Positions 348-27,260 of a stretch of 42,527 nt of DNA are shown here, piece after piece (positions within the stretch are counted from its first letter, which is position 1; each line of letters opens with the position of its first letter). A program made the translations under genes and the position numbers. This stretch comes from Candidatus Polarisedimenticolia bacterium (GTDB lineage: Bacteria; Acidobacteriota; Polarisedimenticolia; Gp22-AA2; AA152): contig DASTZC010000118.1 of NCBI GenBank assembly GCA_035764505.1, positions 1-42,527 of the forward strand, in the 5' to 3' direction. The notes under the pieces were generated by a model. It was not told the origin of the DNA, made no database searches, and worked only from the letters and a program-made list of their open reading frames with translations.

Positions 348-2291
348 CTAGGGGACGGAGGGTTCGCTGCCCTGAGGCTGGCGGATCGTGACCACCGGAA
401 TGGTGACGGCGTGCCGGACGGAGGAGATCGTCTGGCCTTTCATCATGTCGCCCAGCAGGCGATGGCCGTGACCGCCCAGGATCAGAAGATCGAGCTTGTT
501 CTGCTTGGCGATCTCCACAAGAGCGTTGGAGGGAACTCCGTAGCCCAGGATGGAGCGGGCCCGGATGCCGCGCAGCTGCAGATCGGCCACGAGCGAGTCG
601 AGATAGCGCCGCGCCTCCGCGGCATCCTTCCCTTCGGCGTCACTGCCGTAGACTTGCGCGCCGACCCCTTCCAGGACGTGGATGAGCACCAGCTCCGTGC
701 TGGGATCCCGCACCAGGCCGAAGGCGTAGGCGAGGACTCCCTTGTCGTTGACCGAGCGATCCAGCGCCAGTCCGGCGGCCTTTACCTGCGGGACGACGAG
801 GCCGCTGAGCACTTCCGAGGCCTCCAGGGGAACAGGCACGCCCGTCGCGCGGCGGCCGGGCAGGAAGGGACGCACCGTGATGTAGAGGAGCAGCCCCAGG
901 CAGGCAACGACGATCGGCAGGGCGACGAATTTCGTCCAGGTGGAGGCCGGCGGCGGCAGTGCCATCCATTCCACCAGCAGGTCGTAGACCAGCTTGGTGT
1001 TGAGCGCGATGATGATGGCGGCTGAGATCCACGCCAGGACGCGCACCCAGCGCGCGCTGACGAACTCTCCCATGCGCTTGCGGTCGCTGGTGACCTGGAT
1101 CAGAGGAATGATGGCGAAGGGGAGCTGCAGGCTCAGGATCACCTGGCTGACGATGAGCAGCTTGTAGGTACCGCTCTCGCCGGTGATGGCGATGACGATG
1201 ACCGCCGGGATCAGCGCGATGGAGCGGGTAATCAGCCGCCGAACCCAGGGCTTGAGGCGGATCTGCAGGAACCCTTCCATGACGATCTGTCCCGCCAGCG
1301 TGCCGGTCAGCGTCGAGCTCTGCCCCGAGCAGAGCAGGGCGATGGCGAAGGCCGTGGAAGCCACGGCGGTCCCCAGCAGCGGCGCCAGCAGCGTGTGGGC
1401 CTGCTGGATCTCGGTCACCTCGATGCCGCGCGTGTAGAAGGTCGCCGCCGACATCACCAGAATCGCGGCGTTGACGAAGAACGCCGCGTTGAGCGCCACC
1501 GTCGTGTCGATCAGGTTGTACTTGCAGGCCCGCCGGATCGCCTCCGGGTTGCGGCCGATCTTGCGCGACTGCACCAGCGCCGAGTGCAGGTAGAGGTTGT
1601 GCGGCATGACGGTCGCCCCGAGGATGCCGATGGCCACGAACAGCGCCTCGGGGTGCGAGAAGACGTAAGGGTTGGAGCCCGACAGCTTGGGGACGAAGCC
1701 CTGCAGCACCGAGCCCCACTGCGGATGCGACAGCAGGATCTCCAGCAGGAAGCAGCCGCCGATCGTCAGGACCAGTGTCAAAATGAAGGCTTCCATCTTG
1801 CGGATGCCCAGCCTCTGGATGGCCAGGAGCAGGAAGGTATCGAGCAGGGTGATGAAGCAGCCCCACATCAGGGGAATGCCGAACAACAAGTTCAGGCCGA
1901 TGATCGTCCCGAGCACTTCCGCCAGATCGCAGGCGGCGATCGCCACCTCGCACAGAATCCAGAGCGCGAACCCCACCGGCCGCTCGAAGGAGGCCCGGCT
2001 CGCCTGCGCCAGGTCCATGCCCGAAGCCAGCCCCATGCGCGCCGACAGCGTCTGCAGCAGGACGGCCATGGCGTTCGACATCAGCAGGATCCAGATCAGC
2101 TCGTAGCCGAACCGGGCCCCTCCCTCGATGTCGGTGGCCCAGTTGCCGGGATCCATGTAGCCGACGCTGACCAGATACGCCGGTCCCGCGAAGGCGAACA
2201 GGCGGCGCCAGAAGCTGGTGTGGTCGACGAAGACGGAGGAGTGGACTTCCTCGAGGGAACGGGTCGGCAGGGCGCGGGCTTCAGTGCTCAT
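348..2291 (-). CDS. mntH: NRAMP-family Mn2+/Fe2+ transporter with C-terminal universal stress (USP) domain
   Basis: This is a 647-residue inner-membrane importer of divalent metals, most likely proton-coupled Mn2+ uptake. The N-terminal ~440 residues carry the NRAMP core. The helix-1 metal motif DPGN is at residues 47-50, and the helix-6 motif ATVMPHNLYLHS is at about 226-237, with Ala226 and Met229 spaced as in structurally known NRAMPs. After a last hydrophobic segment near 465-490, a cytoplasmic UspA-like domain fills about 500-635. It ends with the nucleotide-loop pattern GGHGHRLLGDMMKG followed by S-S and the strand IPVVTIR. Plain MntH proteins are about 400-450 residues, so the USP part is an extension; such fusions are known in other bacteria. 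The start ATG overlaps the stop of the upstream DtxR-type regulator by four bases, so the two are cotranscribed and probably translationally coupled. Metal preference for Mn over Fe is inferred from the regulator. Confidence 0.93.
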   Translation of the reverse strand: MSTEARALPTRSLEEVHSSVFVDHTSFWRRLFAFAGPAYLVSVGYMDPGNWATDIEGGARFGYELIWILLMSNAMAVLLQTLSARMGLASGMDLAQASRASFERPVGFALWILCEVAIAACDLAEVLGTIIGLNLLFGIPLMWGCFITLLDTFLLLAIQRLGIRKMEAFILTLVLTIGGCFLLEILLSHPQWGSVLQGFVPKLSGSNPYVFSHPEALFVAIGILGATVMPHNLYLHSALVQSRKIGRNPEAIRRACKYNLIDTTVALNAAFFVNAAILVMSAATFYTRGIEVTEIQQAHTLLAPLLGTAVASTAFAIALLCSGQSSTLTGTLAGQIVMEGFLQIRLKPWVRRLITRSIALIPAVIVIAITGESGTYKLLIVSQVILSLQLPFAIIPLIQVTSDRKRMGEFVSARWVRVLAWISAAIIIALNTKLVYDLLVEWMALPPPASTWTKFVALPIVVACLGLLLYITVRPFLPGRRATGVPVPLEASEVLSGLVVPQVKAAGLALDRSVNDKGVLAYAFGLVRDPSTELVLIHVLEGVGAQVYGSDAEGKDAAEARRYLDSLVADLQLRGIRARSILGYGVPSNALVEIAKQNKLDLLILGGHGHRLLGDMMKGQTISSVRHAVTIPVVTIRQPQGSEPSVP

Positions 2292-2953
2292 CCCGTCTTC
2301 CTCATCTCCCTTACCTCGAGGGCGGAGGCCACCACCGGGCCGATCTGCACCCGCCGTCGTCCCAGGACCAGGCTGATGGGCCCGCCGAAAGGCGCCACGC
2401 CGGAGATGCGGAAGCGGCGGCCCGGCTCGATCCCCATGCCGCGCAGATGCTCCAGCAGCTCTGCGTCCTGATCGAGGCAGCGCAGGATCTCGCCGCGCGC
2501 TCCTTCTTTCATCGTCGCGAGGCGGACCGGAGGCGTGTCATCGGCGGAGGGGCCGTGCAGCGCCGGAATCGGATCGCCGTGCGGATCGCGCGACGGACGG
2601 CCCAGCATCTCGAACAGCCGGCGCTCGAGCTCATCGTCGGTGGCATGCTCCAGCCGCTCGGCGTGCCGGTGCACCTCCTCCCAGCCGAATTTCAGGTGCT
2701 CGACCAGGAACAGCTCCCAGAGGCGGTGCTTGCGTACCATGCGGCGCGCCGCCGCCTCCCCTTCGGGGGTCAGGCGCACACCGCGATAGGGGGTGTGGCG
2801 CAGCAGCTTGCGGTCGGCCAGCTTGCGGATCATGCCGGTCACGGAGGCTTCGGCGACTCCCAGCCGCCGCGCGATGGCCGAGGTGCCGACCGGACGCTTC
2901 TCGCGCCCCAGCTGGTAGATCGCCTTGAGGTAGTCGTCGACTACGTCGCTCAT
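2288..2953 (-). CDS. mntR: DtxR/MntR-family metal-dependent transcriptional regulator
   Basis: This 221-residue regulator probably represses the operon it heads when Mn2+ (or Fe2+) is plentiful. Residues 1-60 form a winged helix-turn-helix (YLKAIYQLGRE, then SAIARRLGVAEASVTGMIRK). Residues 65-140 are the dimerisation and metal-binding domain, and about 150-221 form an FeoA/SH3-like tail. His76, Glu80, His103 and Glu110 match conserved DtxR-family metal ligands. The position of DtxR Met10 is Asp7, and the position of Cys102 appears to be Asp107; acidic residues at these places favour Mn2+ in MntR-type members. The ATG at 2953 is preferred to the one at 3001. The predicted -10 box lies at 2993-2998, so a start at 3001 would be upstream of the transcription start. 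The next gene is the NRAMP transporter, overlapping by ATGA. Confidence 0.9.
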   Translation of the reverse strand: MSDVVDDYLKAIYQLGREKRPVGTSAIARRLGVAEASVTGMIRKLADRKLLRHTPYRGVRLTPEGEAAARRMVRKHRLWELFLVEHLKFGWEEVHRHAERLEHATDDELERRLFEMLGRPSRDPHGDPIPALHGPSADDTPPVRLATMKEGARGEILRCLDQDAELLEHLRGMGIEPGRRFRISGVAPFGGPISLVLGRRRVQIGPVVASALEVREMRKTG

Positions 2954-2987
2954 GCCGGCCCCATTCCTGTCCGACCGAATCGAGATG

Positions 2988-3021
2988 TTAGGAATATACA
3001 AACTTCGGTTTAGGAATGCAA
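2988..3021 (-). promoter_or_regulatory. Promoter of the mntR-mntH operon with two TTAGGAAT direct repeats (likely MntR operator)
   Basis: Read on the minus strand, TTGCAT (3021-3016) and TATATT (2998-2993) are separated by exactly 17 bases, a good sigma70-type promoter. On the plus strand the octamer TTAGGAAT occurs at 2988-2995 and 3010-3017, 22 bases apart (about two helical turns). One copy covers the -10 box and the other touches the -35 box. This is a fitting place for a repressor, and the metal regulator encoded directly downstream is the obvious candidate. An 11-base palindrome CAAAACTTTTG sits just upstream at 3019-3029. Sequence and spacing are seen; binding by MntR is inference. Confidence 0.55.
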
Positions 3022-3043: not shown

Positions 3044-4945
3044 TCAGCGGCGGGCGGCTTCCTCGGGGACCCGCTCCACCCGCCGGGTCGTCCCGGTCTC
3101 GGGGGGGTGGATGATTCCCTGCTCCATCCACCGGTGCCGTCCTTCCAGGACGCGGCGCGAGACGCCGTATTTGACGGCATCCTCGTTGTGCCAGATGGCC
3201 CGGAAGCCGCCGGCGATACGGCGCCGCAGGTTGCGGCAGCAGAGATCGGCCAGCTCCACCGCTTCGGCCCCACCCGGCACCCCGGCGCGGCGCATCGCCT
3301 GGGCGCGCGACACGGCGGCGATCATGGCGAACAGGTCGGCGCCGATCTCGACGCCGCGGAACAGCAGCGCCTGCTTCTTCTCCAGCTTGCCGCCGTAGAC
3401 CATCATGGCGTGGAACAGGTTGCGCGCCAGGCGCCGGCTGGTGCGCTCCACGAAGCGCACGTGCCCGGCGAGAGGGCCGAACTCGCTGAAGCGAGGCCAC
3501 CGACCCCATCCCAGCCAGCGCGTCGGATACCAGACGGCATAGAAGGCGATCACCCCCGGCAGCGCGGCCAGCTTCTTTCCCGCCGGGACCTTGGGATCCA
3601 CCAGCGCGCCGGCGACCGCCAGGTGCCGGTCGACCGCCTCGCGCGCGATGAACAGGCGCATGATCTCGCTCGATCCCTCGAATATCAGATTGATGCGGCA
3701 ATCGCGCAGGATGCGCTCCACCGGCACGGGAGATTCGCCGCGGTCGCGCAGGGAATCGGCTTTCTCGTAGCCGCGCCCGCCGCGCACCTGCACCGTCTGG
3801 TCGGCGATCTTCCAGGCGGTCTCGGTATTCCACATCTTGGCCACGGCCGCTTCCAGCCGGATGTCCTGCTCCCCCTTGTCGGCCATCTGGGATGCCAGCT
3901 CGGAGACCGATTCCATCGCGAAAGTGCCGGCGGCCATGTCGGCCAGAATCTGCCCGATCGCCTCGTGCTTGCCGACCGGCTGGCCCCACTGCACCCGCTT
4001 GCCGGCCCAGTCGCGGCAGATCTCCAGGCAGACTTTGCCGATTCCCGCGACCGAGGCGGGAAGCGTCAAGCGACCGGTGTTCAACGTCACCAGCGCCAGC
4101 TTCAGACCGCGTCCTTCCGCCCACAGGAGGTTCTCTTTCGGAACGCGCACGTTACGCAGGCGGATGACGGCGTTCTCAATGGCGTTGAGGCCCATGAAAT
4201 GGCAGCGGTGGGTGACCTCGACTCCCGGCCAGGCGGTCTCGACGATGAAAGCGGAAATCTTGCGCGTGTCGGGGTGGCGCGCCATCACCACCAGCAGCTC
4301 GGCGACCGTGCCGTTGGTGCACCAGAGCTTCTCGCCGTCCAGGATGTAGCCCGAGCCATCGGGGCTGCGCGTGGCGGTGGTAGCGACGTTCGCCGGATCC
4401 GATCCGACGTCTGGCTCGGTCAGGGCGAAGGCGGAGATCGCGCCGGCGGCGCAGCGCGGCAGGTATTTCTTCTTTTGCTCCGGGGTCCCGAAGATCTTGA
4501 GCGGCTGCGGGACGCCGATCGACTGGTGCGCAGACAGCAGCGCCGTGACGCTGCCGTCGTGGCTCGTCACCAGCTGCATGACGCGGCAGTACTCCACCTG
4601 CGAGAAGCCAAGACCGCCGTATTCCTTCGGGATCTTCATGCCGAAGGCCCCCATCGCCTTCAGCCCATGGACCACCTCGGGAGGGATCTGCCCTTCGCGA
4701 TCGATCCGATCGGGATCCACGCTTTCCTGCAGGAAGCGCTCCATGCGCTGGAAGAATTCCTGGAACTCGGGGCGGGGCGCCTCGCCGACCCCGGGGAAGG
4801 GATGCACCAGATCAAGGCGGAAACTGCCCAGGAACAGCTCCTTCAGGAAGCTGGGCTGGCGCCATTCCGCTTCGCGCGCCTCCTCGGCGACGCGGCGCGC
4901 TTCCCTCTCGCTCGCGGTGATGACCTTCTCGGGATTCTGGCTCAC
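3044..4945 (-). CDS. Acyl-CoA dehydrogenase (FAD-dependent, long C-terminal extension)
   Basis: This 633-residue cytoplasmic flavoenzyme catalyses alpha,beta-dehydrogenation of acyl-CoA thioesters, probably in fatty-acid beta-oxidation. Family signatures appear in order: [19 protein letters not shown] near 100, the FAD/substrate motif [14 protein letters not shown] near 175, [17 protein letters not shown] in the middle beta domain, and the helical C-terminal region with [10 protein letters not shown]. The catalytic base is predicted at Glu423 within [12 protein letters not shown], the position used by very-long-chain acyl-CoA dehydrogenases. About 190 residues follow it, so the length matches the VLCAD/FadE-like class rather than the ~380-residue short-chain enzymes. 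Chain-length preference cannot be read from sequence. The start ATG overlaps the stop of the upstream SGNH-like gene by four bases, so both belong to one transcript from the promoter at 6295-6323. Confidence 0.92.
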
Positions 4946-6438: not shown

Positions 6439-8478
6439 ATGGGCCCGATCGAACCCCCCAAGCTCAAGCCTGGAATGACCCTCGAAAAAGCAGAAGCAGC
6501 GGCGGCACCGGAAAAGACCCGCGCCGACGCCGGCCATGTCATCACCGGCAAGGCCCTTGTCTTCTTCGATCCCAGGAATCCGGGCAAGAAGCTCGACGCG
6601 ATCGACACCGATCAGATCACGCCCGCGGCCGACTGCGTCTCCGAGAGCCTCGACACGCTCGACGAGCGCTGGAAGGCGGGTTCGTTCCGCTACCTGATGC
6701 CCGATTTCGGAGAGCGGGTGCGGCGCGGAGAGAACTTCTTGATCGCCGGGGATCGCTTTGCCATCGGCTCGTCGCGTGAGATGTCGCCGGCGGGGCTCAA
6801 GGGGGTGGCGGAAGCGGCCGGGCTGGAGATGGTGATCGTCTGCGGCAACAACATGGGGGACATCTTCCGGCGCAACGCCTTGAACCTGGGGCTGGAGGTC
6901 GTCCAATCGCCCGAGGCGGTCGCCGACGCGCGCGATGGCGACGAGTTCCGATTCGACACTCACAGCCGCGAGCTGGCGAATGTGACCCAGGGGAGGCAGT
7001 ACACGGTCAAGCCGCTCACGGCGCGGGAGGAGGAGATCCGGCGCGGCGGCGGCATCTTCGCCGTCGGCCGGCGCGATTTCCTTGAATCGCTGCGCAATCC
7101 GCCCGCGATCGGGTTCCCGCCGGAGCGCGAGGCGCGGCGCATGACCTCGACCGAGCAGATCGTCTGGGCCCACCGCGTCGACAAGACGGCGCGTGTCGCC
7201 CCGGGCGAGACGCTGCGGGTCTACGCCGACCTGCTCCCCGCCTCGGACGGCACCGGTCCCTTTTCGATCTACACCTTCAACCGGATTACCGGGGGGAACA
7301 CGATCTTCCCGCGGCGTGCCGCTTTCGCCAGCGACCACTTCGTCTTCACCGGCAAGGAAGCGGACGAGAGGCAGACCTCGATCTCGCGCCAGTTCGCCAA
7401 GGTGCACGGCATCGAGTCTCCTTATTTCGCCACGCCGGGCGACGGGATATTCCATTTCTATTTCCCCGAGCAGGGGCTCATCGTCCCGGGGGGCTTCTAT
7501 CCCGGCGCCGATTCCCACAGCCGAGCCTATGGCGCCTATGGCGCGGTGGGACTCGGAGTCGGCAGCACGACGCTGGGCTACGGCTGGGCCACGGGGGCGA
7601 TTTACTTCACGCTCGCGGCGCAGCGGCGCGTGGTCTTCGCGGGAAAGCTGCAGCCCTGGGTGAACGGCAAGGACGTGGTGCTGGAGCTGCTGCGGCGCTG
7701 GGGCGCGGCGCAATCGCGCGGCATGTGCGTGGAGTTCGTCGACGCCGATCGTCAGCTGCCGATCCCGTTCCGCAACACCATCGCCAACATGATGGCCGAG
7801 GGAGAAGCGCAGAACGGCATCTTCGCCCAGGACGAGATCACCACCCGGTGGTTCGCGGAGCGCGGCATCTCGTTGCCCTATCCGCAGGTCCAGCCGGGCG
7901 CGGAGGCGCGGTACGAAGTTGATGAGACGTTGAAGCTTCAGGACGTGGTGCCGATGGTGGCCAAGCCCTACTCTCCGGGCAACGCCTTCCCGGCGGAAGA
8001 GATCGCGAAAGAGCGGATCACCTTCGACAAGGCGCTCATCGGGTCGTGCACCAACGGCGGCTATGAAGATCTGCTCGGCGCGGCGCTCGTCCTGCGTGCG
8101 GCGCGCGATGCCGGCGCGAGCCGCATCGCGGGAAAGACGGAATTCGTCATCTTCCCGGGCAGCGGACTGGTCAAGAAGCGGATCGAGATGCCGGAGGCGC
8201 GGCTGGCAGGAGAGTCGATCGGTGAAGTCTTCCGCAGCGTCGGCGGAGTCATCCGGGAATCTTGGTGCGGTCCCTGCTTCGGACAGGGCCCCGACGCCCT
8301 GACCAAAGGGCAGCGCGCCGTCACCAGCTTCAATCGCAACTGGCAGAACCGGATGGGAGTCGGAGGAGAAGGGTACCTGGCGAGCCCGCAGGTGGTGGCG
8401 GCCTCGGCGCTCCTCGGCTACATCGCCTCTCCATCGGATCTCGGCCTCGCCTGGAACCCCGAGCGCTTCGCAGTCTAG
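6439..8478 (+). CDS. Aconitase-superfamily hydratase with swivel domain first (permuted LeuD-LeuC-like)
   Basis: This is a 679-residue predicted [4Fe-4S] dehydratase/isomerase of a hydroxy-acid, related to aconitase, homoaconitase and isopropylmalate isomerase. Residues ~37-230 form the small swivel domain, with the substrate-binding motif GSSRE (Ser111-Ser112-Arg113). Residues ~235-675 form the large catalytic domain, with the motif GADSHS (Asp358-Ser359-His360), a Cys ligand in GSCTNG (Cys537) and the CGPC pair (Cys610, Cys613). All three cluster cysteines are present, so it looks active. Classical aconitases have the reverse order, and IPM isomerase has two subunits. The ATG at 6439 has GGGAG nine bases upstream. 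A TTG at 6409 in the same frame is also possible and would add ten residues. The gene stands alone between divergent and convergent neighbours, so context does not name the substrate. Aconitate-like, methyl-malate-like or homoaconitate-like substrates are all possible. Confidence 0.85.
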   Translation: MGPIEPPKLKPGMTLEKAEAAAAPEKTRADAGHVITGKALVFFDPRNPGKKLDAIDTDQITPAADCVSESLDTLDERWKAGSFRYLMPDFGERVRRGENFLIAGDRFAIGSSREMSPAGLKGVAEAAGLEMVIVCGNNMGDIFRRNALNLGLEVVQSPEAVADARDGDEFRFDTHSRELANVTQGRQYTVKPLTAREEEIRRGGGIFAVGRRDFLESLRNPPAIGFPPEREARRMTSTEQIVWAHRVDKTARVAPGETLRVYADLLPASDGTGPFSIYTFNRITGGNTIFPRRAAFASDHFVFTGKEADERQTSISRQFAKVHGIESPYFATPGDGIFHFYFPEQGLIVPGGFYPGADSHSRAYGAYGAVGLGVGSTTLGYGWATGAIYFTLAAQRRVVFAGKLQPWVNGKDVVLELLRRWGAAQSRGMCVEFVDADRQLPIPFRNTIANMMAEGEAQNGIFAQDEITTRWFAERGISLPYPQVQPGAEARYEVDETLKLQDVVPMVAKPYSPGNAFPAEEIAKERITFDKALIGSCTNGGYEDLLGAALVLRAARDAGASRIAGKTEFVIFPGSGLVKKRIEMPEARLAGESIGEVFRSVGGVIRESWCGPCFGQGPDALTKGQRAVTSFNRNWQNRMGVGGEGYLASPQVVAASALLGYIASPSDLGLAWNPERFAV

Positions 8479-8540: not shown

Positions 8541-11500
8541 TTAAGACTGGGCCCGTCTTCCCCGGATCAGCTCAAACATTTTCAGTGCGGCAGGTATGCT
8601 GGCGCTCACCGCGCCGATGAACGCGGTCGATAGGTTGAGAAACTGAGGCTGCGTGAGGAAGAACACGAAGGCCACGACGATGGCCGCAGCCACGCTGGTT
8701 CCGCGGATCGTGTGCCAGGGCTGCCAGGCCGCCTTGCGCATCCCGCCGATCCCCTCGCCGCGTCCGAGAAGGATCACGTACCTGGCGAAGCTCTCGTTCA
8801 TGGCTTTCAAGGCCGGGTTGCGCGCGATCAGCCCCTTTTCCCACAGGCTGCGAATCACCGAAGGCCTGGCGTTGATGAACGGGTCGTCGGCGAGGTCGAA
8901 CAAGGCCAGCTTTTCCTCCACCGAGCAGGTCGCCCAGAGGGAGCGGTAGTAGGCCTGCGCCCGCCCGAGGACCTCGCCAATCACCTGATCCTTGCTCGAG
9001 AGTCCGTCGACAGGCAGAGACAGGATATCCATTCCAACGCGGCGCAGCGTGGCGGTTGGGCTGCATTCCAGCCGCAGCGCCACGGCAGCCTCTGCGCGTA
9101 GCTTCGCTCGCTCAATCGCCTCCTGCAGCCGCTCCCTCGAAACGCCGTCCGATTCGTCCTCGGTTGCATTGAACCTTCGGCTGAAGGTGCTCCAGACCCG
9201 CGCCCAACAATCCAGGCTCGCGGCGTCAATCCGCTCCCGGCTCTTGCGCGGGCTCGGCTCGTTTCCCTTGCCGGGCTTCGCTTCATCCTCGGCGCCGCCA
9301 ACCGGAAAGCTCATGGGGTCGGCAGCCGAGCAGACCACGATGCGGCACTTCATGAGGAGAAGCTGTTCCAGCAGCCGCATCTTCCAGCGGTTGCGAGCCG
9401 GATCGTCCTGCAGCGTCTCGAAGTGGTCGATGGCCACGACCTTCCCGGACTGCGGCGCCAGCTGCGCCAGCGTCTCGTCCCATTTCCCCGCCGCCTCGAC
9501 CTGGCGAATGTCGATCCGCTGGAACTCGGGCCCCGCGATAAGCCGGCTCTTTCCAGAAAGCGGCGGGCCGAGCACCAGGGTATTCACCTGGACTTCGCCC
9601 AGGACCCTGTTCTCAGCAGGTCGGGCCGAAGGGAGCGACAGGTCGATGCAGAACAGCTTGCGCAGCACCGAGCGCACCAGCAGGTAGAGAAGCACGGGCA
9701 GGAGAGCGAACCCCAGCAACACTCCAAGCCATCCCGGCGCCGTGGTCGGCAACGACAGGAGAGGCACCTCGGATCCCAGGGGGAGATGATCCCCCGCCCC
9801 GCCGGGTCCCTTCACGAGGGACACGTGGCCCGGACCGACAATCCATTGGCGCGTGCAGTCATCCGAGGAGTCATGCAGGAGATTGTGCGTCTGCACCGAA
9901 AACTCGTTGTAGAGGGGCCGAATCACCTCGAGAACCTCGTCGAACAGATGTCCCCGGGAGGCCTCCTCGAATCGGTGCTTGCTGGAGGTGCAGCGGGGCG
10001 TGTCATTTCGGGGAGGGAGAACCGTGGTATTGAAGAAGAATCCATAATAAAGGTCGGTGTTGTCCTGCAGCCGATGCGCCACGAAGGAAGGAGTCGCCGG
10101 GATGTCTCGATAGTACTGGTTGACTCTCTCCCTGCGCTCGGCGATGGCGCGCGCCAATCCGAGCTGTCCGTGCTTGACGAGTACTTCCATCTCCGTGTCA
10201 TGGGTCGCCCGGAAACAGCCGATCGCGGGCACCACACTGAGGAGAACGACCAGAGAAACGGCGAGCAGGACGTAGGTCGTCAGGGAGCTCGGCCAGGGGA
10301 AGGATCCTCTCAGTGAGCCGATGCGAGGCCATCGGATGAGCCTGCGCGGGAAGGCGACCAGCGGAACGCATGCGCCCATGACGACGCCTTGTAGAATCGT
10401 CACGGCCAGGATCCCGTCCCGTTGCGGCTCCCGATGGGCCTGGAGCCGCTCCAGGATACCGAGCGCAAGGAGCACCATGGGGAGGGCCGTCAGGGCCGCG
10501 AAGTAGGGTGCTCGCCGCCACGCGGAATCCGTCTCGGCCTTCAACCTGACGCAATTCAGCAGGAGCGCAAACGGCGGCAGTGCGAATGCCATGAGGGGAA
10601 TGTGGTGATGAACCGTCGTGAACAGCCGGCTCGCGCAGATCAGGATGAGCACGAGGTTGGCCGCCAGCAGCTGCCGCTCCGCCGGCGCGCGCCGTGCGTC
10701 GTGCCACATCCACTCGGGGCCCGAGAAGCATAGGATGAGAGCCGGCAGCAGGAGGAGGCATGCGTACAGAAGGTAGAGAATGATCGAGGCGGAGAGAAGC
10801 TCCAGGTTCGCGGTGCACTCGATCTCCTTGTCGCGGAATGTGACGAGGGTCCAGGGCACGTCCTTCATCGGAGTGACATACAGACGGTGTCCGCGCCCTG
10901 TATAGGACACGTCGACCCAATCGGCCGCCCGCGCGCTCACCCTGGCCCGCAGGGCGCGGCTCTGGTCGCACTCGGCGAAGAAGTCCTCGACGAGCACCCG
11001 CTTCGAGTCGGAATGGAAGAGGAGGCGTCCCTGCTCGTCGAGGATGGCATAGCCGAACCCGGGCGGAGCCACGACATCGCGCAAGGAGACGAGGTGAGGG
11101 ATCAAGGTCTCCACGCAACCTCCCCGGCAGGGACCGGGTCTCGATAGGACCGACAATGACCGGCCCGTATTCGCCGACAGGACGGTATCGAGGAAAAAGG
11201 GCTTGTCTTCTCCGGCCATCGGCCACCCGCGCTCCTCGTCGATGGTCCGGAAGTAGTCCCGCTCGCTGACGTCGATATTCGCGCGGGTCCGTCGCTCGGT
11301 CGTCCATTTGGCGAACTGCTTGCCGGCCCTCTTATCGGCGCCACCTGCCGCCGACGCCCTCGCCCCCGGGTGGACCAGCGTGAGAACTTCGAAGTAAGGG
11401 GCGCCGCGCTCGATGTCGAGCCAGGCCGGAGGATGCGCGAGAATCCTCTCCTGCTCTTGCTCCTTGAAGTCCGAGGAGGAACGGTCGAAGCGGTTCAGCA

Positions 11501-12599
11501 TCGCGGTCAGCTGCGTGAGTTCGAGATGAAAGTGTTTATCCATCTCCTCCGCGAACCTCTGGAGCTGCAGGTCCAGCTTGCCCCGCAATTGCACGTAGCT
11601 CCACATGTCGAGAACGAAGAAGACTGCCAGGCCGGTCAGCAGGAGGACGGAAGCGCTGATGAAGATGCCGTCCCTGATGCCCAGACGATCGGTCGCCTGC
11701 AGGCTCCAGAGCTTGACCAGCGGCCAGCTCGCGGTAATCGTGATGAAGAGAAACAGGATGACGATCAGCAAGGTGTACGAGAGCGACGTGCTCTCGGCCC
11801 GGAAACGGTCCTTCCGCACCAATCCGCACAGGCTCCAATTGACCACGGACTCGGACGAAGGAGCTTCCGGGCGCCCCTTGGAGAGGGAAACCCTGACCGG
11901 CTGAACGAAGAGGCGGTAAGGGGCGCCGCCCAGGTTCAAGAGGTAGACGTCGGTCGAGGCCAGGACCTTGCTGTACGGCACCTCTTCCCCTGATTCATTC
12001 GTGACGACGCCGATTTGCGTGAGCCTGGGTCCCGAGTTCGCCCGCCGGTAGATGACCTTCGTGTCGTTGTCAACGATGAGCAGATCGTCGAAGGGCTGGT
12101 CGTTGATCGTGCCCAGCAATTCGTCCAGGGCCGTCGCGACTCGGAAGCTCGCGACACAGCGATCACCAGCCGCCCCCGTGAACTGGAATTCCAATCTGAA
12201 TTGGCCCCCTTCCTGAATCGGTGCCAGGACCACGCCGGGCTCCTGCTTGTGACGGGGCTCCAGGCTCGGGGCACCGACAAGCTTCAGCGCAGGCGCAAGC
12301 TCGAGCTGCTCCTTCAGGTTCTTCGAGAACATTTCCTTGTTGCAGGTGCTTCCCGATTTCGATTTCGACGCGTCCCAGGACTTGCTCACCATGTTTCCCA
12401 GCACGTCATTGGCATAGTTCTCGATCATCAGCGTGAGCCGGTCGCTCTGGGCGCCCAGAAGCCGGAAGTTTCGGGTAATCAGATAGGTCCTTTGGCGGGA
12501 TATATAGATGTAGGCAAACGTCCCGAAGGAGATCGCCAGCAACATCAGGACCATGGCAACGACCCCGAAGGTCCGCAGGTCGGTGCTCCGTCCGCGCAT
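8541..12599 (-). CDS. Giant multi-pass membrane protein: two sensor-like exported regions, P-loop NTPase, winged-helix-like tail
   Basis: This 1352-residue protein is not one I can assign to a named family. Visible layout: a membrane helix at 12-33; an exported region at 35-270 that looks PAS/Cache-like; helices at 272-293 and 311-331; a second exported region at 335-590 resembling a double-Cache sensor (SERDYFRTIDEERGWP near 445, FGYAILDEQGRLLFHSD near 515). Then come about six to seven helices between 600 and 792, a third exported region at ~795-950 and a helix at 956-976. The cytoplasmic part holds an NTPase with Walker A GPPLSGKS (1011-1018), a Walker B-like strand VVAIDHFE (Asp1058, Glu1061) and VVCSAADP near 1088. 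A winged-helix-like stretch follows (~1222-1275, CSVEEKLALFDLADDP), then two terminal hydrophobic helices (1300-1316, 1320-1340). The start ATG follows AGAGGAGGAG. Inference: a membrane receptor coupling an external signal to a STAND/AAA-like NTPase. It is monocistronic. Confidence 0.75.
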   Translation of the reverse strand: MRGRSTDLRTFGVVAMVLMLLAISFGTFAYIYISRQRTYLITRNFRLLGAQSDRLTLMIENYANDVLGNMVSKSWDASKSKSGSTCNKEMFSKNLKEQLELAPALKLVGAPSLEPRHKQEPGVVLAPIQEGGQFRLEFQFTGAAGDRCVASFRVATALDELLGTINDQPFDDLLIVDNDTKVIYRRANSGPRLTQIGVVTNESGEEVPYSKVLASTDVYLLNLGGAPYRLFVQPVRVSLSKGRPEAPSSESVVNWSLCGLVRKDRFRAESTSLSYTLLIVILFLFITITASWPLVKLWSLQATDRLGIRDGIFISASVLLLTGLAVFFVLDMWSYVQLRGKLDLQLQRFAEEMDKHFHLELTQLTAMLNRFDRSSSDFKEQEQERILAHPPAWLDIERGAPYFEVLTLVHPGARASAAGGADKRAGKQFAKWTTERRTRANIDVSERDYFRTIDEERGWPMAGEDKPFFLDTVLSANTGRSLSVLSRPGPCRGGCVETLIPHLVSLRDVVAPPGFGYAILDEQGRLLFHSDSKRVLVEDFFAECDQSRALRARVSARAADWVDVSYTGRGHRLYVTPMKDVPWTLVTFRDKEIECTANLELLSASIILYLLYACLLLLPALILCFSGPEWMWHDARRAPAERQLLAANLVLILICASRLFTTVHHHIPLMAFALPPFALLLNCVRLKAETDSAWRRAPYFAALTALPMVLLALGILERLQAHREPQRDGILAVTILQGVVMGACVPLVAFPRRLIRWPRIGSLRGSFPWPSSLTTYVLLAVSLVVLLSVVPAIGCFRATHDTEMEVLVKHGQLGLARAIAERRERVNQYYRDIPATPSFVAHRLQDNTDLYYGFFFNTTVLPPRNDTPRCTSSKHRFEEASRGHLFDEVLEVIRPLYNEFSVQTHNLLHDSSDDCTRQWIVGPGHVSLVKGPGGAGDHLPLGSEVPLLSLPTTAPGWLGVLLGFALLPVLLYLLVRSVLRKLFCIDLSLPSARPAENRVLGEVQVNTLVLGPPLSGKSRLIAGPEFQRIDIRQVEAAGKWDETLAQLAPQSGKVVAIDHFETLQDDPARNRWKMRLLEQLLLMKCRIVVCSAADPMSFPVGGAEDEAKPGKGNEPSPRKSRERIDAASLDCWARVWSTFSRRFNATEDESDGVSRERLQEAIERAKLRAEAAVALRLECSPTATLRRVGMDILSLPVDGLSSKDQVIGEVLGRAQAYYRSLWATCSVEEKLALFDLADDPFINARPSVIRSLWEKGLIARNPALKAMNESFARYVILLGRGEGIGGMRKAAWQPWHTIRGTSVAAAIVVAFVFFLTQPQFLNLSTAFIGAVSASIPAALKMFELIRGRRAQS

Positions 12600-12850
12600 G
12601 GTCTCCTCCTCTTGGGTGCCTTTCCGAAGGACCCGGATCCGGCGGTTGCCGCGAGCTTTTAGGCGAATTGGACCTTCATGTCCCGCCTGGACGAACTTTC
12701 AGGGCGCAAGTGGAGATGGAGCCTCTATACTAGGTAAACGCGTCGGGAGGGGGATTTGCACGGACTATTTATGGAGGGGTCGGTACCCGCCGCCTTCGAG
12801 TGCCTGACGCCTTGCATGCGAACCCCCGGAAGGGCAGGGATTCGGGAGCC

Positions 12851-13396
12851 ATGAAGAAGTGTCCCGGATGCGGCCTGGAGATGCCCGGGAGCCAGGCCGT
12901 CTACGATCAGTATTACAACGCTTCACCCGAGTGCTGGTCGGTCTATACCGAAGTCCTGGGGGCCGAGTTCCAGAACGCGCCCCTCTTCGGCCAGGTCCAT
13001 ATGATGACCGTCGACACGTACGCCGTGCAGCATGCCGGCGGTCCCCATCCCGACAAGTCGGTCTTCATTCACCTGGCGGGTCTCTATCTGACGCAGGAGC
13101 GGGGAATCGCGCCCACCAAAGTTCCTCCGCAACTCCAGCGACTCGCCACGGAGATGAAGGTGTGGCCGCACTTCACTCCGCCGGAGCTCATCGGGCCCTT
13201 GACGGTTTTCGACGTGGCGACGGCCGGGTCGCCGGTGGCGCATGCGCGGATCGTCCGGGATTGGGCCGCGCAGGTCTGGCGGGCGTGGAGCGATCATCAT
13301 GCCGCCATCGCCGCGCTGGTCTCGCAGTATGTGGAGTTGCCCGCCGCGGCCTCGCAGCGCGCGAGCAGCCCGCCGGCCTCCTCGACCTCGACCTAG
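12851..13396 (+). CDS. DUF5946-like protein with N-terminal zinc finger
   Basis: This 181-residue soluble protein starts at ATG 12851 after GGGAG. It opens with a zinc-ribbon half-site, KKCPGCGLEMP (Cys4, Cys7). An aromatic-rich motif follows with ASPECWSVYTEVLG, then VDTYAVQHAGG, FIHLAGLYLTQERG and a C-terminal helical part with RIVRDWAAQVWRAWSDHH. The arrangement of CPxCG, ECW and VDxYAVQH matches my recollection of the DUF5946 family, whose function is unknown. Conserved Cys and His in these motifs suggest a bound metal. It is followed after seven bases by a four-helix membrane protein and then a methyltransferase, so the three are likely one operon. The C-terminus is Ala/Ser-rich and low in complexity (SQRASSPPASSTST). 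Confidence 0.7.
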   Translation: MKKCPGCGLEMPGSQAVYDQYYNASPECWSVYTEVLGAEFQNAPLFGQVHMMTVDTYAVQHAGGPHPDKSVFIHLAGLYLTQERGIAPTKVPPQLQRLATEMKVWPHFTPPELIGPLTVFDVATAGSPVAHARIVRDWAAQVWRAWSDHHAAIAALVSQYVELPAAASQRASSPPASSTST

Positions 13397-25359: not shown

Positions 25360-26805
25360 TTAGCCGACGCTGCCCTCGAGGCTCACGCCCAGCAGCTTCT
25401 GGGCCTCGACGGCGAATTCCATGGGCAGCTCGCGGAACACCTCCTTGCAGAAGCCGTTGACGATCATGTTCACGGCGTCCTCGAGCAGGATGCCGCGCTG
25501 CCGGCAGTAGAAGATCTGGTCCTCGCCGATTTTCGAGGTGGACGCCTCGTGCTCCAGGCGCGAGGTGCTGTTCTTGACCTCGATGTACGGGAAGGTGTGC
25601 GCCCCGCACTTGTCGCCGATCAGCAGCGAGTCGCACTGCGAGTAGTTGCGGGCGTTGGCCGCCCCCTTGAGGATCTTCACCAGGCCGCGGTAGGTGTTCT
25701 GCCCGTACCCGGCCGAGATCCCCTTGGTCACGATGGTGCTGCGGGTGTTCTTTCCGATGTGGATCATCTTCGTCCCGGTGTCCGCCTGCTGGCGGTTGTT
25801 GGTGACGGCCACCGAGTAGAACTCCCCGACCGAGTTGTCGCCTTGCAGGATGCAGCTCGGGTACTTCCAGGTGATGGCGGAGCCGGTCTCCACCTGGGTC
25901 CAGGAGATCTTCGAGGCGACCCCCTGGCACTTGCCCCGCTTGGTGACGAAGTTGTAAATCCCGCCTTTGCCTTCCTTGTCACCCGGATACCAGTTCTGCA
26001 CCGTCGAATACTTGATGCTGGCGTTGTCCAGCGCCACCAGCTCCACCACCGCGGCGTGCAGCTGGTTGGTGTCGCGGATGGGTGCGGTGCACCCTTCCAG
26101 GTAGCTGACCTGCGCTCCCGCATCGGCCACGATCAAGGTCCGCTCGAACTGCCCGGTGTTGGCCGCATTGATGCGGAAGTAGGTGGACAGCTCCATGGGG
26201 CAGCGCACGCCCTTCGGGATGTAGACGAAGGAACCGTCGCTGAAGACGGCAGAGTTGAGGGTGGCGAAGAAGTTGTCGCTGTAAGGGACGACGGAGCCGA
26301 GGTACTGGCGCACCAGGTCCGGATGGTCCCGTACCGCCTCGGAGAAGGAGCAGAAGATGATCCCGAGCTCCTTCAGCTTCGCCTTGAACGTCGTCGCCAC
26401 GGAAACGCTGTCGAACACCGCGTCCACCGCCACGCCCGCGAGCATCTTCTGCTCCGACAGCGGGATTCCCAGCTTGGCGTAAGTCTTGAGCAGCTCCGGG
26501 TCCACCTCATCGAGGCTCTTCGGCGCCGCGCTCGTCTTGGGCGCCGAATAATAGATGATTGCCTGATAGTCGATGGGGGGGTAGTGGACGTTGTGCCAGG
26601 TGGGCTCCTTCATCGTCAGCCAATGCCGGTAGGCCTTGAGCCGCCATTCCAACATGAACTCCGGCTCGCCTTTTTTCGCGGAGATCGTGCGGATGACGTC
26701 TTCGCTCAATCCACGCGGAATCGTCTCCGCTTCGATGTCGGTGACGAAGCCGTACTTGTATTCCTGCTCGGTCAGCTCCTGGATGGTCTTGGTCGAGGTG
26801 CTCAT
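25360..26805 (-). CDS. sufB: SufB subunit of the SufBCD Fe-S scaffold
   Basis: The 481-residue main scaffold subunit. The start ATG at 26805 ([20 protein letters not shown]) follows GGAGG and overlaps the stop of the Rrf2 regulator by ATGA. The open frame to 26994 is a shadow. Hallmarks are [20 protein letters not shown] near 30, [20 protein letters not shown], the core [40 protein letters not shown], and the C-terminal [19 protein letters not shown] with a Cys. The strongly conserved sequence leaves no doubt about identity. It is the first structural gene of the SUF operon, directly behind its regulator. Confidence 0.97.
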
Positions 26806-27260
26806 AGAACCCTTGCCTCCTTCCGCAAGGCGATCCCATTCGCGGGGACGGGACTCGAGGGGAACGGCCGGGCCATCTCGGAGAGCTTGACGCTCTCCAG
26901 CGCCTGGCGGATGGCTTCGTTGATCCGCTGCCAGTTTCCATGGACGGGACAGCAGGTTTCCTGCACGCAGCTCCCCGGAGCGCTCTGAGCGCACTGGGTC
27001 AGTGCCACCGGCCCTTCGGTGGCCGCGATGATGTCGGCCATCGATATCTCCTCTGCCGGCCTTGCCAGGCTATAGCCGCCCTTGACCCCGCGGTGCGAGA
27101 CCAGCAAGTGCTTCTTGGTCAGCGCCTTGAGAATCTTGTTCACGGTCGGCAGCGGGAGCCGCGATGCCGTAGCGATGTCCCGGGCGTTGTGCATGCTCTT
27201 TTCGGTGTCTCGGGCGAAGTAGGTGAGGAGGACGATCCCGTAGTCGGTCAATCGAGTCAT
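26802..27260 (-). CDS. Rrf2-family Fe-S sensing regulator of the SUF operon (IscR/SufR-like)
   Basis: This 152-residue Rrf2 regulator probably represses the suf operon when Fe-S clusters are plentiful. The winged helix is in [18 protein letters not shown], and [20 protein letters not shown] is the recognition part. The wing contains the [11 protein letters not shown] motif. Cluster ligands are Cys90, Cys98 and Cys104 (with an extra Cys103) and His107 in CCPVHGNW, close to the spacing of the IscR [2Fe-2S] site (three Cys, one His). The ATG at 27260 gives the usual Rrf2 N-terminus; a TTG at 27284 would add eight residues. It overlaps sufB by ATGA. The inverted repeat over its own promoter makes autoregulation likely. 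Confidence 0.93.

Follow-up and report, generated by a model that had tools for sequence, protein, structure and literature searches.

Enzymes of the aconitase type are known in several arrangements of the catalytic domains 1–3 and the swivel domain (domain 4). Mitochondrial or AcnA-type aconitases follow the order 1-2-3-linker-4. In the LeuC/LeuD isopropylmalate isomerases, the large and small subunits are separate, and the archaeal-type isopropylmalate/citramalate isomerases and homoaconitase (MJ0499, MJ1003, MJ1271, 3vba) are likewise built from two subunits. The excerpted text of PMC8184944 describes domain 4 as N-terminal in AcnB, fungal IPMI and single-chain AcnX; it gives the order 4-1-2-3 for AcnX type I and identifies this single-chain enzyme as a [2Fe-2S] hydroxyproline dehydratase. 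At the level of whole pathways, the HphA-HphB-HphCD homophenylalanine pathway of cyanobacteria is a LeuA/LeuB/LeuCD-like elongation set. According to excerpts of PMC12961565, the key specificity residue of HphA is an alanine, used for aromatic 2-oxoacids, and its exchange for leucine gives 95-fold more activity with the IPMS substrate.

The window, by which we mean the whole stretch of 42,527 nucleotides analyzed here, encodes a swivel-first isomerase that we call PERM (Table 1). The ORF at 6439–8478 is a real gene, with a GC content of 0.66/0.49/0.86 at codon positions 1/2/3, and the neighboring genes are alike in this respect. In the ATG form, the close relative L003 aligns with PERM from residue 1, and PERM residue numbers count from this ATG (679-residue form).

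Table 1. Features of PERM and their positions in the window
Feature	Positions	Strand	Basis or remark
PERM CDS, swivel-first isomerase, 679 aa	6439..8478	+	ORF list, profile matches, GC by codon position
Alternative PERM start, in-frame TTG	6409	+	689 aa from here; own GGAGG
Swivel domain (domain 4), LeuD-type, residues 53–209	6595..7065	+	TIGR02087; structure matches 2pkp, 3vba
Substrate-recognition loop D65-C66-V67-S68	6631..6642	+	Alignment with 3vba and 2pkp loops
GSSRE motif, residues 110–114	6766..6780	+	97/97 T1 rows
Catalytic domains 1–3, LeuC-type, residues 235–668	7141..8442	+	PF00330, NF001614; 4kp2, 4kp1
DSH motif, residues 358–360	7510..7518	+	97/97 T1 rows
Cluster cysteine C537	8047..8049	+	97/97 T1 rows; invariant in T1+T2 alignment too
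Cluster cysteine C610	8266..8268	+	T1 and T1+T2 alignments
Cluster cysteine C613	8275..8277	+	T1 and T1+T2 alignments

PERM belongs to the aconitase superfamily, with the three cluster cysteines, the DSH motif and the GSSRE motif of the swivel all present. In profile searches, PF00330 matches the protein with 236 bits (E 1.1e-69; Pfam cut-off 28.7), the LeuC-type large-subunit model NF001614 matches its C-terminal part with 288.4 bits (E 7.6e-86), and the LeuD-type model TIGR02087 matches its N-terminal part with 74.2 bits (E 9.5e-21); the Pfam family Aconitase_C, at 19.2 bits, stays under its cut-off. In the structure predicted by AlphaFold (pLDDT 89.9, pTM 0.90), residues from about 30 to 221 are matched by LeuD folds (2pkp, Z 20.6; 3vba, Z 19.5) and residues 235–668 by LeuC folds (MJ1003, 4kp2, Z 46.2; MJ0499, 4kp1, Z 42.6–42.9). 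Profile matches and predicted structure bear out the swivel-before-catalytic order proposed in a preliminary description of this DNA (LeuD fold at ~33–221, then the LeuC fold), and the positions it gave for GSSRE, DSH (358–360) and cysteines 537, 610 and 613 are all correct in the 679-residue numbering. We read the aconitase active-site positions by their usual numbers. In 97/97 aligned rows of PERM and its close relatives (clade T1), all the catalytic and cluster positions checked are invariant; this set is partly redundant, as it includes the window sequence two times and draws on two collections for some genomes. This agrees with the earlier suggestion that a functional single-chain LeuD-LeuC-like enzyme is plausible. 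Judged from its sequence, PERM is a one-chain LeuD-LeuC-like enzyme with the swivel first and a predicted complete [4Fe-4S] catalytic domain.

Domain by domain, the nearest folds and sequences are those of the archaeal-type isomerases and homoaconitase. These proteins have two subunits and the loops YLVY or YLRT, whereas PERM is one chain, with the small part first and the loop DCVS. PERM also differs from LeuC/LeuD in being one ORF and stays below their curated cut-offs (NF001614, 288.4/385 bits; TIGR02083, 256.8/610.65; TIGR02087, 74.2/108.95). AcnB (1l5j) resembles PERM in being one chain, swivel followed by domains 1-2-3, and is the best full-length collinear match among the structures listed, with model residues 24–679 on 154–841 (595 aligned, Z 36.0, rmsd 3.0). 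However, AcnB shares 20% identity with PERM, takes another position in the tree, at the end of a very long branch, and has a HEAT-like N-terminal domain that PERM lacks: about 30 residues precede the swivel of PERM, and the 1l5j alignment begins at its residue 154. The AcnB family model TIGR00117 gives 54 bits against a cut-off of 1287. AcnX type I (7cnq) has the same domain order and is collinear (Z 18.0, rmsd 5.3), but is 13% identical; PERM has no AcnX family match, as a Pfam search with E values of 1 or less gives Aconitase and Aconitase_C alone. Mitochondrial/AcnA-type aconitase differs in the place of the swivel, which is N-terminal in PERM, and its model TIGR01340 scores 100.3 bits against a cut-off of 825.35. 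PERM passes the curated cut-off of none of the 25 NCBIfam models listed. The preliminary description had set the domain order against that of classical aconitase and homoaconitase and against the separate subunits of isopropylmalate isomerase; this comparison is incomplete, as AcnB and single-chain AcnX are already swivel-first in the excerpts of PMC8184944, and the AcnB structure is collinear with the model. The domain order is known already, and the new part is the pathway link. What is unusual in PERM is a bacterial LeuD-LeuC single chain with the swivel first and without a HEAT domain.

The T1 clade has 100/100 support, and its stem is 2.3 changes per column long. Like PERM, the members of a second clade, T2, are swivel-first without a HEAT domain and about 30% identical to it (about 28–36%), but they form a separate clade of their own with 100/100 support. 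T2 comprises proteins of Acidobacteriota and plasmid proteins of Burkholderiales, Roseomonas and Streptomyces, the plasmid members being publicly annotated as ‘aconitase family protein’. Both a single permutation event common to T1 and T2 (AU p 0.57) and a joining of T1 to stand-alone LeuC (AU p 0.39) are compatible with the data. In the first tree, T1 and T2 were separated by AcnA/mitochondrial aconitase, with long branches; the swivel-domain tree is rough, its bootstrap not having settled. In the phylogeny, PERM stands apart from AcnB, and the refuting case named earlier, tight grouping with a characterized permuted enzyme, did not occur. The genome collection gave 149 stretches that match PERM, of which the 80 best are considered here; these T1 loci encode proteins 68–85% identical to PERM and fall, at about 70% identity, into eight named phyla: 51 in Acidobacteriota, 12 in Chloroflexota, 8 in Eiseniibacteriota, 2 in Actinomycetota and one each in Cyanobacteriota, Krumholzibacteriota, Armatimonadota and Vulcanimicrobiota, with 3 lacking a phylum. 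Nearly all of these genomes are MAGs, so the phyla with a single case may reflect binning errors. T1 is a genuine and widespread branch that is apparently uncharacterized.

PF00330 matches two proteins of the source genome (G000; 4.46 Mb, computed completeness 100%): PERM itself and an aconitase of the mitochondrial type, for which TIGR01340 gives 1018.9 bits against a cut-off of 825. Its one HMGL-family protein is a LeuA-like synthase of 416 residues, here SYN, which is under the cut-off in 19/19 families matched and far under all IPMS cut-offs. Two Iso_dh proteins are present, an NADP isocitrate dehydrogenase and a LeuB-like dehydrogenase, here DH, which exceeds the cut-off of the 3-isopropylmalate dehydrogenase model PRK03437 (437.6 vs 393 bits). 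The leucine-type synthase, isomerase and dehydrogenase occur once apiece, on different contigs (SYN at L085:1102-2352, DH at L086:1468-2550). A search of the genome found neither ilvD, for the upstream branched-chain step, nor a LeuC-like protein other than PERM. Since the mitochondrial-type aconitase is separate and leuC and ilvD are absent, PERM would be neither the TCA aconitase nor part of ordinary de novo leucine synthesis. This search for a separate acn and leuCD had also been advised earlier, and the refuting case, that PERM is the sole TCA aconitase, did not occur.

We examined co-occurrence in 149 genomes of the source phylum, counting T2 at E up to 1e-150 and SYN at E up to 1e-50. 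T1 occurs in 15/149 genomes and T2 in 36/149, with 0 having both. SYN is present in 60/149, comprising 15/15 genomes with T1, 32/36 with T2 and 13/98 with neither; the Fisher p values for its association with T1 (3.6e-7) and with T1 or T2 (4.9e-22) are both inflated by kinship. The four T2 genomes without SYN are G031 (77% complete), G052 (87%), G066 and G097. DH at a minimum of 62% identity is found in 13/15 T1 genomes, and G071 (T2) and G101 have such a DH as well; in the two remaining T1 genomes the closest DH has 45% (G028) and 39% (G033) identity. The module occurs both with and without leucine synthesis, given that classical LeuA and LeuC are both present in 6/15 T1 genomes and ilvD likewise in 6/15.

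Genes around the best 80 of the 149 loci were assigned by homology search of the flanks. SYN and/or DH lie beside PERM in 10/12 Chloroflexota loci, SYN in L010, L020, L029, L066, L068, L076 and L080, and DH in L020, L047, L065, L068, L070 and L080. A 2-oxoacid dehydrogenase E1 gene is near PERM in nine loci (L010, L020, L029, L047, L065, L066, L068, L076 and L080), and an E2 gene in L080. In the flanks of the other 68 of these 80 loci, many of them on short contigs, SYN or DH was found in 0/68, and in 0/51 of the Acidobacteriota loci did either adjoin PERM. The earlier remark that partner genes giving a clue to the substrate are lacking therefore stands inside the window but fails beyond it, since SYN and DH lie on other contigs of the genome and adjoin PERM in Chloroflexota. 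Apart from ilvD in a few, no other conserved PERM neighbor was seen among the Acidobacteriota loci searched. A row in which LeuC and LeuD, as separate genes, come after DH is found in L183–L186, from SYN genomes without T1 or T2, and the same row occurs in G101, which has no SYN, and G005, which has T1.

A search of 72,556 plasmid records with SYN gave one match, on a plasmid of Streptomyces sp. KN37 (NZ_CP139046.1; 39.5% identity), a record found independently with PERM and with SYN as query. There, the SYN relative overlaps a swivel-first isomerase gene and an Iso_dh gene follows, all in one row. The surrounding cluster (L205:26776-38965), which we presume to be phenazine-type, combines NRPS/PKS and phenazine-type genes with an acyl-CoA dehydrogenase and two crotonyl-CoA carboxylase/reductases. 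Together with the row itself, this gene content suggests an extender or starter unit that is both branched and elongated. On plasmids of Burkholderiales and Roseomonas, T2-type isomerases lie by HMG-CoA-lyase-like genes (L197:2134-8920, L199:6941-13785, L200:4719-8980), with CoA transferases also nearby in L197 and L199, which hints at a dicarboxylate catabolic set. Further neighbors of the plasmid T2-type relatives include CaiB and tripartite (tricarboxylate-transport) transporter genes. As a class, swivel-first isomerases probably serve more than one pathway.

Two sites bear on the substrate. In PERM, D65-C66-V67-S68 aligns with YLVY of isopropylmalate/citramalate isomerase (3vba) and YLRT of homoaconitase (2pkp); the third position is Val in PERM and 3vba and Arg in 2pkp, while D65, C66 and S68 differ. 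Residue 67 is Val in 96/97 T1 rows and Ile in 1/97, and a hydrophobic residue at this deciding position argues against citrate and homocitrate. In SYN, mapping of the pocket with the help of 6ktq and 3rmj gives five residues, A102, M166, V168, C196 and H257, conserved in 38, 34, 42, 36 and 42 of 42 SYN rows. The corresponding residues given in the excerpts of PMC12961565 are A,D,A,M,S for HphA, H,R,T,S,H for homocitrate synthase and L,E,S,N,E for IPMS. SYN has the specificity Ala of HphA, but its remaining pocket residues are unlike those of HphA, and it matches none of the characterized enzymes compared at all five positions. By one-residue analogies, the SYN pocket is predicted to be roomier than that of IPMS and to lack the homocitrate synthase Arg.

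Taking the architecture, conserved residues, co-occurrence and neighborhood together, we consider it fairly probable that PERM supplies the isomerase step of a module that lengthens a hydrophobic 2-oxoacid by one carbon. SYN would condense the 2-oxoacid with acetyl-CoA; PERM, as a LeuC/LeuD-like [4Fe-4S] hydro-lyase, would shift the hydroxyl of the resulting 2-substituted malate to position 3; and DH would oxidize and decarboxylate the PERM product to a 2-oxoacid one CH2 longer. In the Chloroflexota loci, the neighboring 2-oxoacid dehydrogenase (E1, E2) could then make the acyl-CoA. The reaction, the step order and the hydrophobic nature of the substrate are inferred, and the substrate is probably bulkier than 2-oxoisovalerate. 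The Streptomyces row, the DH-LeuC-LeuD rows of some SYN genomes, the Val of the PERM loop and the specificity Ala of SYN also speak for such a module. The 13 SYN genomes without T1 and T2, the four T2 genomes without SYN, the two T1 genomes without a close DH, the missing SYN and DH neighbors in the 51 Acidobacteriota loci and the other contexts of the plasmid T2 relatives count against it, and with the SYN pocket unlike any characterized one at all five positions, the choice of substrate is a guess.

Leucine biosynthesis, with PERM as the isopropylmalate isomerase replacing LeuC/LeuD and with SYN and DH as the matching LeuA and LeuB, stays the main rival, chiefly owing to the ilvD neighbors and one genome. 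ilvD lies directly upstream of PERM in seven acidobacterial loci (L004, L011, L023, L039, L119 at L119:6261-7937, L120 and L123, of which L023 and L120 are probably one contig), and genome G128 has ilvD, PERM, SYN and DH while classical LeuA and LeuC are absent. The lack of another LeuC-like protein in the source genome, the DH score above the 3-isopropylmalate dehydrogenase cut-off and the IPMI-like Val of the PERM loop point the same way. We nevertheless regard this reading as unlikely, because 9/15 T1 genomes, the source genome among them, lack ilvD and would need 2-oxoisovalerate from imported valine, because the module would be redundant in the 6/15 with classical LeuA and LeuC, and because SYN differs from IPMS in both its pocket and its profile scores. 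That PERM instead provides a further aconitase for the TCA cycle, or acts as a homoaconitase, is highly improbable: its superfamily membership and its full set of cluster and catalytic residues would fit, as would the SYN His at a homocitrate synthase His position, but another PF00330 protein, whose reading frame stays open for 750 residues or more, occurs in 15/15 T1 genomes, and both the loop Arg of homoaconitase and the substrate Arg of homocitrate synthase are replaced, by Val in PERM and by Met in SYN.

A catabolic role, in which a leucine-derived 2-oxoacid is lengthened for beta-oxidation, sparing the HMG-CoA lyase route, seems improbable to us. SYN being the sole HMGL-family protein of the source genome speaks for it, as do 3-hydroxyacyl-CoA dehydrogenase genes near module genes in L020, L066, L076, L174 and L179 and enoyl-CoA hydratase genes in L155, L174 and L179; the beta-oxidation-type neighbor clusters (c12, c19) are few and scattered. 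HMG-CoA lyase passes its cut-off in 4/15 T1, 20/36 T2 and 42/149 genomes overall, so there is no exclusion between it and the module. Its absence as a sign of a leucine-catabolism bypass, suggestive in the source genome, was undone by this wider count.

For the elongation module, we found no description of a swivel-first LeuDC type or of a SYN-isomerase-DH set in open-licence PMC papers. A bolder version, which we put forward tentatively as a possibility, is that PERM, SYN and DH form an undescribed homologation pathway, widespread in Acidobacteriota, Chloroflexota and others, which would convert a bulky leucine-, isoleucine- or phenylalanine-type 2-oxoacid into the one-carbon-longer 2-oxoacid and on to the acyl-CoA, beside and independent of leucine synthesis, with T1, T2 or a LeuC+LeuD pair replacing one another in the isomerase slot. 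Should the elongation reading hold, a type of chain lengthening known chiefly from leucine synthesis and a few natural products would belong to the everyday metabolism of large soil phyla, isomerase architectures would be interchangeable, and ‘aconitase family protein’ entries would receive a reaction. An uncharacterized swivel-first branch of the aconitase superfamily gains a testable pathway context, and the one-chain enzyme set could serve as a tool for homologated amino acids.

The window holds several further genes of note. A local operon with the acyl-CoA dehydrogenase gene at 3044–4945 was considered and set aside, as among the loci searched a close homolog lies near PERM in L117 alone (79%, same family). 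Adjoining PERM on the minus strand is a 1352-residue ORF (8541–12599) for which a Pfam search at E 1e-5 gives no match, and a DUF5946 protein is encoded at 12800–13396 on the plus strand. Besides the Fe-S isomerase PERM, the window encodes a SufBD-type Fe-S cluster assembly protein (25360–26994, minus strand). The stretch 348–3001 (minus strand) encodes a 647-residue fusion of an Nramp metal transporter with a universal stress protein domain, next to a DtxR/IdeR-type repressor with a FeoA domain.
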